From positions 1,689,501 to 1,753,500 of the forward strand of contig JAUPFP010000034.1 of the NCBI GenBank assembly GCA_036925085.1: 64,000 bases of DNA, read 5' to 3'. Of the stretch, positions 2,233-52,655 are shown piece by piece (position 1 is the stretch's first letter; each line of letters begins with the position of its first letter). The translations under genes were made by a program, and so were the position numbers. The notes under the pieces are model-generated. The model searched no databases, was not told the DNA's origin, and worked only from the letters and a program-made list of their open reading frames with translations. The stretch is from Brachycybe producta (taxonomy: Eukaryota; Arthropoda; Diplopoda; Playtdesmida; Andrognathidae).

Positions 2233-2631
2233 AAATTAAGAAGAATTTGAGAAATTGTTTTTAATCAATTTTAAAAAAATGTTTCCCGGGCCCATCAGGC
2301 AAGTCCGAGCCGGGGAAAAATTCCACTTCCACCCCCTTCCCTCTTGTCAGTCTCGACACCTTGTGTTGCACAAATCACACAATACATGTGGTACAACGCA
2401 GAACTACATTTATGTTGCCTAATGTAAACCCGCCTTTAGAATAATATAAATACTTGCACAAAACGGTAAGAGAATTAATAAATTATTACTTGTTTTAGCT
2501 TATTTTTATAATAATGGCTTAATAAATTCTTTAATATTTTGGCTTTAGTAATCATACAACAAAAAAAAAATCAATTACTCTTGTTTTAATTTATTTATAT
2601 TAAATAAGTCATATTTGAACTTTTGAACGTT

Positions 2632-2633
2632 AC
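2632..2633 (-). other. Splice donor (GT) after the GPCR first coding exon
   Basis: On the minus strand the sequence reads GCAAAG|GTAACG. It lies where the GPCR homology stops and an in-frame run to a nearby stop begins. The intron would continue toward base 1 and off the window. It would contain the 1300-2435 Harbinger-like element and its nested insertions. Confidence 0.7.
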
Positions 2634-2933
2634 CTTTGCTGGAACACAAACTAGTATAAGAAGAAGATCAGCTGATGCCAAACTAGCCAAAAACACATTA
2701 GTAATGGTCCTCATGCGTCTGTGTCTGGTAATGGTGAAGATGATTAAAGAATTTCCAAGAATTCCAATGATGAAAGTGAGTCCGTAGACTGTTGCCGTTG
2801 GAATGATGTCCTCCAGGTAATACGTGGACATGGCTTCGTCGATGTCATAATCGTATTCCAGAGTGTCGTTTTCAGTTTCCGTCACATTACTCATATTGAC
2901 GTTAGTAGTAATGGCCGTGCTTAAATTTTCCAT
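2634..2933 (-). CDS. First coding exon of a class A (rhodopsin-like) GPCR, probably a peptide receptor
   Basis: The exon encodes 100 residues from an ATG at 2933-2931 to a GT donor at 2633-2632. The exon ends AAAG and the intron begins GTAACG, in phase 0. Residues 1-45 form an acidic extracellular N-terminus with four N-glycosylation sequons (N3, N13, N16, N22). TM1 spans about residues 46-69 and carries the family GN pair (G60-N61, N1.50). The first intracellular loop is basic (RHRRMRT, 70-76). TM2 starts near T78 with NVFLASLASAD, where D89 is the D2.50 position, and runs to CVPAK. The loop and TM2 wording resembles cholecystokinin/allatostatin/QRFP-type peptide receptors, but the ligand cannot be assigned from one exon. 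Reading past the donor adds 12 non-receptor-like residues and a stop, which supports splicing. TM3-7 were not found between 1 and 2632. Confidence 0.86.
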
Positions 2934-3233
2934 TTTTATATATATTATAATAATTGGAAGTTTTCACTAATATTAATTTTTTTTTTGTTTTAACGATTTT
3001 CTTTGTTTTTTTTTGTAATCCAGCTATTTTAATGAAAATATGTGTTGAATGTGTTGAACTGAAACATTTTTAACGCGAAATAAAAGTAATTTTGGCGCAA
3101 AAAAAAAGAATTTTGGCGCGAAATGTCACATCAAGTTTGAAGATAAATAAATAATCACAATATTCTCCTGATTTCTTGTTAGTAAAAAAAAATGTGACAA
3201 AGTTTGCTTTGTTTGGAAATCTGTTAGCAAGAT

Positions 3234-13180: not shown

Positions 13181-13256
13181 TACATTTCAGAGTTATGAGA
13201 GGCTCTGGAGAATCACCCAATTTCGAGAAGTTCCCGAGAGCTTCACAGTTTCTATA

Positions 13257-13807
13257 GGTTGTGGGTCACTACAGCTACCAAGGCTCACAAGCGCTACTAG
13301 GGGGAGAACCGCTACTTGGGTCACTACAGCTACCAAAAAATAGGGGGACAAAATATAGACCTTTTTTATCACTTTTTCGTCACTACAGCTAAAAAAAATA
13401 ACCCTTTCTCCCTAACCTAACCGAACCTTACCTAATGAAACCTTACCTAACCGGACCTTAACGATCCTAACCAAAAAGTACCGATACTAACAGAACCTAA
13501 CCAATCCTAACCGATACTAACAGAACCTAACCAATCCTAACCGATACTAACGGAACCTAACCAATCCTAACCGATACTAACGGAACCTAACCAATCCTAA
13601 CCGATCCTAACCAAACCTAACCGATCCTAACCAAACCAAACCGAACCTTACCGAACATAATGAAACCTAATCGAACATAATGAAACCTAACTGAACCGAA
13701 TGTAATCTAAACTAAACGTATTGATAAATAAAAAGGCCTATATTTTTGGTAGCTGTAGTGACCCTCGGTAGCTGTAGTGACCCAGTTAGCTGTAGTGAGC
13801 CAGTCCC
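13257..13807. mobile_element. Inverted-minisatellite element with CCTAA-like core and 8-bp flanking repeat
   Basis: The left arm has two copies of GG(G)TCACTACAGCTACCA. The right arm has three inverted copies (GGTAGCTGTAGTGACC and variants). The 300-bp centre (about 13399-13700) is degenerate CCTAACC/CCGAACC/CCGATACTAA DNA. The element is flanked by the exact 8-mer TTTCTATA (13249-13256 and 13808-13815), consistent with a target duplication. Ends start GG on both sides. No ORF encodes a recognisable protein. Confidence 0.65.
13399..13730 (+). repeat. Degenerate CCTAA (TTAGG telomere-like) pentamer array
   Basis: The tract is built from CCTAA with frequent CCGAA, CCAAT, CCGAT and ACTAA variants, often in 10-20 bp higher-order units such as CCTAACCGATACTAACGGAA. 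It lies in the centre of the 13257-13807 element. It is too degenerate to be a working telomere. Confidence 0.7.
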
Positions 13808-14146
13808 TTTCTATATGCTTTCAGGGCTTTTTAGTTTTGAAAGGCTCCCAGGGGCTTTCCAGTTTATAGAAGTTTCTGGAAGCCGTCGCAGTTTCAAGAA
13901 CATCTGGACAATTTCGAGAGGCTGCTTGTTTATCCAATGAATTTTTTTAATTTTAAATTAATATAGTTAAAACTTTGTACACATATTTTATTATGTCGTT
14001 AACAACTAGCATAAATTACAAATTTGTAACCGGTATAGTTTTCGAAATGCGTATTCTTAATAAGACGCATCTTACTTACCACCACTCGGCAGTGTATTGT
14101 ATATACATGTAACTCGCTCGAGCCAGTACGTGCCTGATTTCATCTC

Positions 14147-33555: not shown

Positions 33556-34735
33556 GATAAATTTCGATTTTCAGATAAGCTTAGAAACCTGCGGTATAGG
33601 TTTTCTGATTTCTGAGACACACTGTAATATAGGGTTACTATACAGGGCCTATATAGTAAACAAAATGCATATGACATTGTAATAGGGGGCCCTCTAGAAG
33701 AAGTGTTTTATATCCATAGAAGAAGAAGAAGAAGAAAAAAGATAGAGTTGAAGTATAGGGTTAAGTTTGTTTGAGGTATCATTTTAATGGAAAAAAGAGG
33801 ATCAATGAGATTACCATTGCGGTCGATATGTTTGATGTACAACAACTGGTAATAACTAGTAAAAAAAAAAAGATCGATATCAAATACATTGTTTGAGATT
33901 TATTCTTTTTTCTCTTATTTTCTGAGCAACTTTTTTGTTGTTGTTGTTGTTCTTATTCTTGTTGTTGCTTATTTGCAGGTCGACACAAAAACCATTATCA
34001 AAATTTCTCAAGAGAGAGAGAAAAATTAGTTTCACCTGCTCACTAAGGGTAAATTTTCGATTTTTTTCTTCTTCTTCATTTTAAATTTAGAAAAGCTCAA
34101 GGTGTATTTTTCTACCTTTGTTTTGAAATGAAAATCTTAAAAGATTTTTTATATTTTGTTTGTGATTATTTTTTTGTATTTTCTTCTCTGGCAGATGTTT
34201 TTAAATTATGTTACCTCTGAGGCTTTTTTTAAGTAAAGGAATGTTCGTCCCCCCCCCCTCTTCTAAAGGTGCCCTTTCGTGTGTGGGTGGAAATCCTTTC
34301 GTGTGTGGGTGGAAACAGAACTTTTTTTTTAAACTTTTACGTTTTTTTGGAACGTTCAGAGCCGTTTACACAGACTTGAGAGAAATGGAGACGTTGTATA
34401 TTTCACGTTATTTTCATGATCTTTTACAAGCGTTTCTGTCTATATTCACGTGTTTTTCGATGTCTATATGATGACATATTAAGTATTTTTCTATGTTTTC
34501 ATACATTTAAGTGTTTTTAGTCTGGTACTGACTAGCCTTCCTAATAGAAATGAAGTCTGGACAGGAAACATTGATTGCAAACTTTGTTAGCAAACAGTTT
34601 GCAAACTTTGTTAGCAAACAGTTTGCAAACTTTGTTAGCAAACAGTTGGCTAGCATGAAGTTTGCCAACAAAGTTTTCTAGCTGTGTACTTAGCTTTAGC
34701 TTTATATAGATATACAATTATTATTATTATAAATA
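33556..34735. other. Noncoding DNA with a short 26-bp tandem repeat
   Basis: Near 34575-34645 a unit containing CAAACTTTGTTAGCAAACAG repeats about three times. There are also AAG and TTG microsatellites. No gene seen. Confidence 0.45.
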
Positions 34736-35059
34736 CTAGTGGGTTAACACGTCATGAATGACGGGAGCAGAATTCCCTGGCAATTAATTGTGCGCATGCG
34801 CTTCGTTTTTTCTTTTTTTTTTACTCATTTCATTTCAATTTCAATCACCCCTCCCACTTTTTCCCCCTCCACGTTTCTCTCTCTTTCTCTCTCTCTCTAC
34901 ACTTTCCAAACCTTTTCTCCCTCTCCACTTTAATATCATGGGGTTCTTGGATGGGACGGGTGCAACATATAGTTGAACTTGAGAAAAAAAAAAGCTGTTC
35001 ATTTCTTCATTTATTTAAATTTATATAAATTCCGATGTGCTTCAATGGTTGTACAGCGT

Positions 35060-35163
<104 letters not shown>

Positions 35164-35541
35164 GCCAGGTCTGTGTGCGTGTGATCTAACACTGTACAAA
35201 CAAGGACAAAGACCTTGAAGCACGTCAGAATTTATATAAATTTAAATGAATAAATGAACTGCTTTTTTTCTCAAGGTCAACTATATGTTGCGCACCCCCC
35301 ACCCAAGAACCCCATGATATTAAATTGGAGAGGGGAAAAGGTTGGAAAGTGTAGGGGGGAGAGAGAGAGAGAAACGTGGAGGGAGGAAAAAGTAGGAGAG
35401 GGTGTCTGAAATTGAAATGAAAGGAGTAAAAAAAAAAGTACGACGCGCATGCGCACACCAGAGAAAATGAAAAACTCATTTTTTCTTTCAAATATAAAAA
35501 GGGGAGGGGATAAGAGTAGCAAAATTAAACTACCGTTTATC

Positions 35542-35683
35542 ACAGGCAATTGTGCCCAGCATTAGAATTTATTTTGCTCAGCCCTTTTATGAACGGCATC
35601 AATTTCTAATTGGTTTGTTACTTGGTCTGACGTCATAAAAGGGCGGAGGAAAAGAAATTCTAATGCTGGGCACAATTGCCTGT
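35542..35683. mobile_element. ACAGGC-family MITE in the compact element's right arm
   Basis: The ends ACAGGCAATTGTGCCCAGCA and TGCTGGGCACAATTGCCTGT are perfect inverted repeats extending past AGAATTT. The core has TTTTATGAACGGCATCAATT and TCTGACGTCATAAAAGGGCG. The left arm of the host element lacks it. Confidence 0.8.
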
Positions 35684-35723
35684 CAATTTTGCTCCCGTCA
35701 TTTATTACGGGTTACCCCACTAG

Positions 35724-46645: not shown

Positions 46646-47369
46646 ACTACTGAGCCCTGTTTTTTTTTAAAAAAAAAAAGAACTCAACCCTTTTATTGTT
46701 ATTATCACCTAATCTATTTTGTGAACAGATTGAAGAATAACAAACAAACAGAAAAAAAATTACGAATTTACGACGAAATGAAATAATAATTTGACAGAAG
46801 AAAAAGTAAACAAAAGTTGAGCCATTTAGAAAATGCTTCTAATATGAAACAGTAACCAGGAGCCCTTAACACGTGCAAATAAAATACACACACCTTTTTG
46901 ACTATAAAGTATTATTAAAGTGAACTGTTTTATCTTTTGTGTGTGTGTACCCAAGCCAAGATACGACGAGTGTTAAAAACAGAAGCCATAATAAATTTTT
47001 TTTTTTTTTTTTTGAAACTCATTATTGTGTGAGTTTCTCTTTTTATCTTTCTCATGCGTTGTTGTAGTAGTTTAGTTTTCAGAGTATGGTTTCTGTTTTA
47101 CTCTTTTGATGCCAAAGCTTGCATTCATTTGCATGTTATTACCATGTGAGCACTGCGATTGTTTTTATTTTCAACTTACATGTATATAGCTCTGTCATTT
47201 TGTGAATGGCTCCACCGCTAAGCTATTTAAACGACTTTTTAAACCAGTATAACAGTTTTATTTTGTTCAGTGTTTTAGTTGTTTTGAATCTACACAACAA
47301 TTTAACCAGATCGTAGAGAAATTAAAAGATTATAAAAAAGATTGAGGGCAACGTTTTATAGATGGGTGT
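46646..47369. other. Noncoding AT-rich DNA
   Basis: Nothing gene-like. It contains a (GT)n and A/T homopolymers. Confidence 0.4.
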
Positions 47370-47379
47370 GTGTGTGGGG

Positions 47380-47855
47380 GGACATTCGCCCTAAAGACAC
47401 TTGTCCAAAAGCCATTTGCCCTAAAACCATTTGCCCTAAAGGGACACTTGTCCTAAAATCATTTGCCCTAAAGGGACACTTGCCCTAAAATCATTTGCCC
47501 TAAATGGACACTTGCCCTAATGGGACATTTGCCCTAGAACCACTTGCCCTAAAAGGACATGCTCTAATCAGTAGTGTAAATGTACATCATTTGGTGTTTT
47601 TTCAGCACCTGTGGCTTGCAAAACCAATTTAACGTACTCCACTGAAAGACACTAAACCATATGAAAAGAGAGAACAAAAAAGTGGCTTTATGGCAAATGT
47701 CCCTTAGAGCAAATGTTCCTTTAGGGCAAATGGTTTTAGGGCAAATGTCACTTTAATGCAAATGGTTTTAGGGCAAATGTCACTTTAATGCAAATGGTTT
47801 TAGGGCAAATGTTCCTTTAGGGTAAGTGTCTTTAGGGCAAACGTCTATATACCTT
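47380..47855. repeat. Inverted minisatellite arms of CATTTGCCCTAAA units around a spacer
   Basis: The left arm (47383-47570) is a series of (A/T)TTGCCCTAAA(A/G) units with GGGACACTTGCCCTAA variants. The right arm (about 47695-47850) is the inverse, TTTAGGGCAAATG(T/G). A spacer of about 120 bp separates them. The outer tips CGCCCTAAAGACACTTG and AAGTGTCTTTAGGGCAAACG are inverted repeats. Unlike the 13.3 and 52.1 kb loci, no clear target duplication was seen; a GT/G-rich tract adjoins the left tip. Confidence 0.8.
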
Positions 47856-51618: not shown

Positions 51619-51927
51619 ATCCCTTGTACACACATGAGTTAAATTAATTCAAATTAAATGTTTTCCTGAAGGTGAATTATACGGAATCCAGTTAAGGACG
51701 TGAACCAAATAAAATTGATTTTTATTATTAATATTTTAAAATGAAATACTAAATCAATCTTTTGTCAATTGTTGTTTATATATTATATTTAAGTATTAAC
51801 TGAATATTTTCAGATTATTAACTAAATTAATTGAATTCGACATATTGTTTGTTTGCCCTTCACAGGGCTATGTAGAACATGTTTATTATTTAAATGCATT
51901 TAAATTATCTAGTGTGTACTAGGTATT
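51619..51927 (+). mobile_element. About 300-bp TACACAC-type MITE, copy D
   Basis: It is nearly colinear with 5419-5724: CTTGTACACACATGAGTTAA, GAATTATACGGAATCCAGTT, CCCTTCACAGGGCTATGTAG and AGTGTGTACTAGGTATTA. Confidence 0.75.
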
Positions 51928-52123
51928 AGGGCCGTATTTGTAATTGGTTTTAAGTCAAAGTTCACAATTTTAGGACTACAATTGACTTAGCAATAATTAA
52001 GATTTCGACCTTTGGTGCTTAAAATCAACATTCTGAGAACAGTTTTTTTTTCTATATCTCCTTAGATTCTCCTATGACCTCAATTCAGAGGGTTCAAGTT
52101 AAGGTTTCCTTTATGAATTTGGG

Positions 52124-52646
52124 GGGTGACTGAATAAGCGCCAAATTGAACAAACGCCAAACTGAATAAGCGCCAAATGGAACAAACGCCAAACTGAATA
52201 AACGCCAAATTTTTGGCTTTTATTCAGTTTGGCGTTAGTTTCATTTGGCGCTTCTTCAGTTTGGCGTTTGTTCCATTTGGCGCTTATTCAGTTTGGCGTT
52301 TGTTCCATTTGGCGTTTATTCAGTTTGGCGGTTATTCAGGTTTTTTGTAAATTCTGATGGTCCAAATATTGTGAGCTTTTATAGACATCAGGCTGTGCAG
52401 ATTTACAAACAGAACATGCTAACCTAACCTAACCAATCCTAACCTAACCAAACCTAACCTAACAATGTGTTTATCACATTTTGGCGGTTATTCAGTTTGG
52501 CGTTTGTTCCATTTGGCGTTTATTCAGTTTGGCGTTTGTTCCATTTGGCTTTTATTCAGTTTGGCGTTTGTTCCATTTGGCGTTTATTCAGTTTGGCGTT
52601 TGTTCAATTTGGCGCTTGTTCAATTTGGCGCTTGATCAGCGCCACC
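52124..52646. mobile_element. Inverted-minisatellite element (GCGCCAAA units) with 9-bp target duplication and CCTAA-like core
   Basis: The left arm repeats GCGCCAAATTGAACAAACGC-type units. About 52215-52336 and 52481-52640 repeat the inverse (TTTGGCGTTTGTTCCATTTG). Between the latter is a spacer with degenerate CCTAACCTAACCAATCCTAA (about 52420-52463). The exact 9-mer GAATTTGGG flanks the whole (52115-52123 and 52647-52655). The flank itself looks like the end of a TAAGGCC-family MITE, so the element appears to have inserted there and duplicated 9 bp. Open frames repeating FGVCSIWRLFSLAF are translations of the units. Confidence 0.75.
52420..52463 (+). repeat. Short degenerate CCTAA (TTAGG telomere-like) tract
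   Basis: CCTAACCTAACCAATCCTAA and CCTAACCAAACCTAACCTAA are mostly perfect CCTAA pentamers with single-base variants. The tract lies in the spacer of the 52124-52646 element, as in the 13.3 kb element. Confidence 0.75.
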
Positions 52647-52655
52647 GAATTTGGG

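Follow-up and report, generated by a model that had tools for sequence, protein, structure and literature searches.

The inverted minisatellite at 52123-52646 of the window (the whole 64,000-nucleotide stretch analysed here) is very probably a non-autonomous foldback, a DNA transposon that moves by cut and paste. It is one copy of a high-copy, apparently non-autonomous foldback-type family, named F1, which is dispersed in the host genome, has two constant and different tips and 8-bp target-site duplications (TSDs), and passes on both its arms and its core with each copy. F1 is a new family with a clear 8-bp duplication, within the already known class of foldbacks. Inverted minisatellites of this kind can thus be read as foldback transposons, and differences in their arms as differences between families. 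The interpretation offered in a preliminary description of the locus is, taken as a whole, partly supported, but not in its proposal that some mechanism re-creates the arms.

Structure and boundaries of the window element

The inverted arrays reported earlier at 52.1 kb are real: Tandem Repeats Finder delimits three arrays of 16-bp units, which also show a higher-order period of 32 bp (Table 1), and as single-stranded DNA the element folds to -121.8 kcal/mol, where its shuffles average -58.1 (z -15.6; equalled by 0 of 100 shuffles). The degenerate CCTAA tract said to lie inside it is also present. The layout is not a simple arm-spacer-arm order, the real order being a forward array, a reverse array, a 79-bp unique segment, the CCTAA tract and a second reverse array.

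A 9-bp duplication had also been proposed. The word GAATTTGGG does flank the element exactly, at 52115-52123 and 52647-52655, and has five occurrences in the window, where 1.02 would be expected, the remaining three occurrences lying in contexts that look loosely alike by eye. However, since the family tip motif starts the element at 52123, the duplication is 8 bp long and the ninth base, a G, is the element's own; a 9-bp duplication is rejected on the family boundaries. The locus reads GAATTTGG / GGGGTGACTGAATAAGCGCC ... GGCGCTTGATCAGCGCCACC / GAATTTGG, and the earlier observation of a dyad with flanking duplications is, in this form, partly confirmed.

To the left of the element, window positions 51800-51930 hold a dispersed repeat whose copies, 77-92% identical, lie near 5.6, 18.4 and 33.3 kb of the window and in four loci.

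Table 1. Foldback-type elements of the window and the parts of the F1 copy
Feature	Position	Strand	Basis
Left TSD copy GAATTTGG, 8 bp	52115..52122	none	Boundary set by family tip motif
Right TSD copy GAATTTGG, 8 bp	52647..52654	none	Boundary set by family tip motif
Whole F1 element, 524 bp; A tip left, B tip right	52123..52646	+	100% self match, many full-length relatives; ends by tip motif
A tip GGGGTGACTGAATAAGCGCC, one mismatch from motif GGGGCGACTGAATAAGCGCC	52123..52142	+	709 genomic places with at most one mismatch; control 0
Forward 16-bp array (A arm)	52129..52211	+	Tandem Repeats Finder; order seen across family
Inner reverse array, head-on to A arm	52212..52339	-	Tandem Repeats Finder; order seen across family
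Unique segment, 79 bp, partly self-complementary	52340..52418	none	Folding; shuffle comparison
CCTAA core, 45 bp, degenerate	52419..52463	+	Tandem Repeats Finder
Outer reverse array (B arm)	52480..52638	-	Tandem Repeats Finder; order seen across family
B tip, minus-strand sequence GGTGGCGCTGATCAAGCGCC	52627..52646	-	730 genomic places with at most one mismatch; control 0
F2 element, 551 bp (L031)	13257..13807	+	8-bp duplication TTTCTATA at 13249-13256 and 13808-13815
F3 element, left end uncertain, no CCTAA core	47363..47853	+	Probable duplication TTTATAGA / TTTGTAGA; ends by eye

The F1 family

In the 295-Mb host genome the A tip has 709 matches and the B tip 730 (at most one mismatch), and the reversed control of each has 0. 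A genome search with the window element returned 1327 first-look candidates, of which 40 were scored; the 39 scored relatives besides the window copy show 85-94% identity in their best pieces, many are full-length, and entire arms are common to different copies. Forward array, reverse array, CCTAA tract and reverse array follow one another in 29/29 long rows, while the number of arm units differs between copies and between the two ends. F1 therefore displays the structural features of foldbacks, namely inverted arms of tandem repeats, dispersed TSD-flanked copies and a variable number of units.

The pairing of ends was followed with the perfect ends listed on contigs C1 to early C6, one of 100 A ends, beyond the end of the B list, being omitted. 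Among the remaining 99, 66 have an inward perfect B end less than 20 kb away (65 at 128-2229 bp, and one mispair at 9594 bp), and 33 have no partner among the perfect B ends listed. Same-tip inward pairs under 20 kb, again among the ends listed, number three A..A and five B..B; the sole short A..A pair sits within a B..A element of 531 bp, and every other pair includes at least one end with an opposite tip closer to it. An arm pattern searched for in viral contigs gave 0 matches.

Target-site duplications and empty sites

With the boundaries fixed by the tips, an 8-bp duplication is exact in 17/28 distinct F1 insertions, has one mismatch in 5/28 and fails in 6/28; for F2, the family of the 13.3-kb locus, the figures are 16/23, 1/23 and 6/23. 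These counts omit insertions having no end pair (L024 of F1; L041, L048 and L056 of F2) and four duplicate F2 rows, and count once L023 and L028, which are the same insertion as judged by eye from their flanks and both lack a duplication. At the same boundaries, 7 bp is exact in one F1 row and 0 F2 rows, and 9 bp in one row per family. L016 and L017, two of the six F1 rows that fail at 8 bp, show an exact 9-bp duplication in a separate comparison, as does L052, an F2 row without the 8-bp duplication. The earlier view of the 52.1-kb element as a transposed insertion with a target duplication is upheld. The six insertions in each family that lack an 8-bp duplication at fixed boundaries count against the foldback-transposon reading, as do the 33 A ends without a listed partner.

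For 49 F1 and F2 insertions, the two flanks were joined and searched against the window and the fetched loci. Uninterrupted relatives carrying the 8-mer once were found for three F2 sites (L035, L038 and L051); in F1 there are weak matches at L018 and L030. For the window F1 site, the joined 239 nt found no copy in the genome that continues beyond the duplicated 8-mer, and the best partial match in the window itself is 82% over 34 nt (E 0.23). It had been suggested that this flank matches the end of the TAAGGCC-type MITE family, and that removing the element with one duplicate would restore the MITE family sequence; neither proposal is sustained by these searches, and the predicted pre-insertion sequence is unproved, as no genomic relative runs beyond the 8-mer.

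The F2 copies L035, L038 and L051 are inserted in a dispersed repeat with GAGAGA/GGGGGA runs (window 34700-35700; L068:4150-5035).

Two further families, F2 and F3

Three inverted-minisatellite dyads lie in the window, at 13.3, 47.4 and 52.1 kb. Tandem Repeats Finder agrees with the preliminary description that the 13.3-kb locus has the same architecture as that at 52.1 kb with unrelated arms; it belongs to F2, whose tips occur at 423 and 537 genomic places. The 47.4-kb dyad belongs to F3, with units of 16-17 bp around GCCCTAAA. A genome search with F3 gave 2349 first-look candidates, of which 40 were scored, most copies at 78-84% identity; F3 is a high-copy family and, judged by sequence identity, an older one. 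Its duplication is less certain: by eye, L069 is flanked at either end by GCAGAAAT(T), and the window copy by TTTATAGA/TTTGTAGA, the remaining fetched copies being truncated, cut or unclear. No CCTAA tract lies in the F3 spacer, either in the window copy or in the five copies that were read over their whole length. Homology among the internal parts of F1, F2 and F3 was rejected, as 189, 196, 260, 297, 142 and 86 of 300 shuffles were as good in the six comparisons.

Inheritance of the arms

From two loci alike in architecture and core, but not in arm sequence, the preliminary description had argued for a mechanism that rebuilds the arms around the CCTAA core. F1 and F2 do both combine this architecture with a CCTAA tract despite unrelated arms and unique segments, which speaks for such a mechanism. 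However, the arms of F1 are passed on with each copy, with two tips that are constant and different. Over the 64 bp behind the tips of 28 F1 copies, mean A-B identity is 0.870 for arms of the same copy and likewise 0.870 for arms taken from different copies, and 971/2000 random A-B matchings are as high as the observed within-copy mean. Re-created arms are therefore unsupported, since the A and B arms of one copy resemble each other no more than they resemble those of other copies, and the tips remain distinct. The tips also keep their identity in pairing: nearest pairs in F1 are A..B, and in F2, on contigs C1-C5 with the ends on C6 excluded, 56 of 58 adjacent inward pairs are A..B, with one A..A (2978 bp) and one B..B. 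Furthermore, F1 copies without a core transpose, and F3 has arms but no core. Re-creation of arms was rejected on the equal identities within and between copies and on the distinct tips of F1 and F2, and we regard it as extremely improbable; the arms at 52.1 and 13.3 kb differ because the loci belong to two separate families.

Loss of the core and the 16-bp size ladder

Coreless copies are found at the lower end of the F1 size range. Among 65 A..B pairs (the 9594-bp mispair being excluded), 11 of the 13 under 300 bp have sizes that are multiples of 16 (binomial P 4e-12), as have 8 of the 52 larger ones. The six smallest paired copies (128-183 bp) are all palindromes without a CCTAA tract, one of them (L084) having a single CCTAA word inside an arm unit, and their 8-bp duplication is exact in five and has one mismatch in the sixth. 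The core is thus dispensable, in that these copies lack it yet carry TSDs. The long copies were chosen by similarity to a cored query, so that their cores do not constitute an independent count.

Relative to each other the two reverse arrays form direct repeats, and in-register recombination between them would delete the unique segment and the core while sizes stay on the ladder. We infer that cored copies gave rise to coreless ones by in-register deletion of this kind, which would yield small coreless palindromes, and that slippage or unequal exchange may cause the number of arm units to drift. The size ladder of F1, in 16-bp steps, offers a clean record of arm and core loss.

Telomere-like tracts in foldbacks and in the genome

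In F1 the CCTAA tract has one orientation relative to the tips in 29/29 rows; in the 19 of 28 copies in which its borders match a fixed pattern, it is 30-80 bp long, with a length that is a multiple of 5 in 18 of them. The F2 tract is longer and degenerate, with 10- and 30-bp periods (Tandem Repeats Finder). No cluster of four or more CCTAA words occurs in the 62.4 kb of the window that remain once its three elements are set aside, in 80 kb of random DNA (the first 8 stretches from a draw of 100) or in 82.8 kb of F1 flanks. Such clusters do occur in the flanks of 14/30 F2 loci, nearly all from further F1, F2 or F3 copies, with the exception of L051:370-399. Under a looser cluster rule, two or more arm words of F1, F2 or F3 lie within 350 bp of every cluster in the window and fetched loci, the exceptions being L078:31-67, which is F3 arm sequence itself, and again L051:370-399. 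This last tract (region L051:293-542) is flanked by 24-nt inverted arms of unrelated, non-tandem sequence, and its inverted-repeat family is multi-copy (263 candidates, of which 40 were scored), with some copies head to head by coordinates.

The claim that CCTAA cores are tied to dyads thus holds for their concentration in F1, F2 and perhaps a third, unrelated family, but not for F3 and the small F1 copies, which are coreless; as these have arms, the arms do not depend on CCTAA. The best explanation of the tract is that it is an inherited, internal, telomere-like sequence not needed for movement. A long perfect CCTAA array runs from C1:5001 (C1:5001-5517 and beyond), near the start of contig C1, and is probably a telomere, from which a TTAGG telomere of the arthropod type is inferred.

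The recurrence of telomere-like tracts in F1, F2 and perhaps a further inverted-repeat family is an odd, unexplained residue. Unrelated foldback families might each have captured telomeric repeats independently, hairpin arms breaking, telomerase adding TTAGG and transposition spreading the patch, such that many interstitial repeats would be transposon-borne. This is compatible with CCTAA in F1, F2 and the L051 family, with the C1 array and with the 0 clusters in non-element window, random DNA and F1 flanks, and in mammals telomerase has patched breaks with such repeats, according to the available part of PMC2246262. It would be simpler to suppose that two or three families gained a microsatellite by chance, and we hold telomere capture to be rather improbable. 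None of the titles and abstract openings surveyed describes telomere-like cores in foldbacks. As these tracts are concentrated in foldbacks, such elements may be a source of interstitial telomere-like DNA.

Superfamily and relation to known elements

The tips of F1 and F2, and of F3 as far as readable, start with GG. A transposase encoded elsewhere would recognise the GG...CC tips, with the tandem units perhaps serving as extra binding sites. In a visual reading of the 45 longest among 139 ORFs from the window and the fetched loci, no transposase or autonomous copy was recognised.

Duplications of 8 bp occur in the hAT and P superfamilies. F1-type families could accordingly be hAT or P elements with foldback arms, which we think unlikely; the GG tips do not look like typical hAT or P termini. 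The P-superfamily element Galileo offers a precedent for this assignment, with foldback arms and transposase binding sites in the repeats, as given in the accessible portion of PMC3688188. As far as that portion and the part of PMC3573991 at hand describe it, Galileo resembles F1 in its long, internally repetitive arms, in units that expand and contract independently at each end and in its two-arm deletion derivatives, but its arms are much longer and its P-type transposase is known.

Merlin elements are a further candidate. In the available excerpt of PMC8101967 they have terminal GG and duplications of 8 or 9 bp, and some copies carry tandem repeats; these traits are shared by the F1-type families, whose tips and 8-bp duplications fall within this description; one Merlin family with highly imperfect terminal inverted repeats is counted as a further likeness. 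Against this, the Merlin transposase domain PF12762 (DDE_Tnp_IS1595) found no match in the host genome at E 0.001 and 0 first-look candidates, in a search whose control set matched in 1/14 genomes and which a lost or very diverged source would escape. A Merlin transposase in the host genome was rejected on this result, and membership of F1-type families in Merlin is very doubtful.

We give about an even chance to the F1-type families being Mutator-like (MULE) foldbacks that a MULE transposase mobilises, for example one of the Spectre or Phantom type. The 8-bp duplication of F1 lies in the 8-11 bp range for MULEs, and a complete Spectre MULE has 8-bp duplications (both from the part of PMC6446971 available); most foldbacks seem Mutator-like, as stated in the accessible text of PMC4079207. 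The absence of any transposase among the ORFs read weighs against it. The closest structural parallel to F1-type families is the Tm1 Mutator/Foldback of root-knot nematodes which, in the available portion of PMC3169594, has the same plan together with a Phantom-like transposase. Both Tm1 and F1 have asymmetric short end motifs, arms with a variable number of tandem units and non-autonomous, hairpin-bearing forms. Tm1 duplications, at 8-10 bp, are like the 8 bp of F1 but mostly 9 bp; its unit is 13-15 bp of other sequence, and an autonomous Phantom-like copy is known. No CCTAA tract is mentioned for Tm1, the paper containing 'telomer' 0 times, whereas F1 has a CCTAA tract. Tetris, a foldback of Drosophila virilis, is like F1 in its internal tandem repeats, 8-10 bp duplications and the lack of an autonomous copy, but unlike it in having 220-bp repeats that seed satellite arrays and few structurally complete copies, according to the accessible text of PMC4079207.

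On the minus strand at window positions 2595-2963, an open frame resembles, by eye, the first exon of a neuropeptide-type GPCR.
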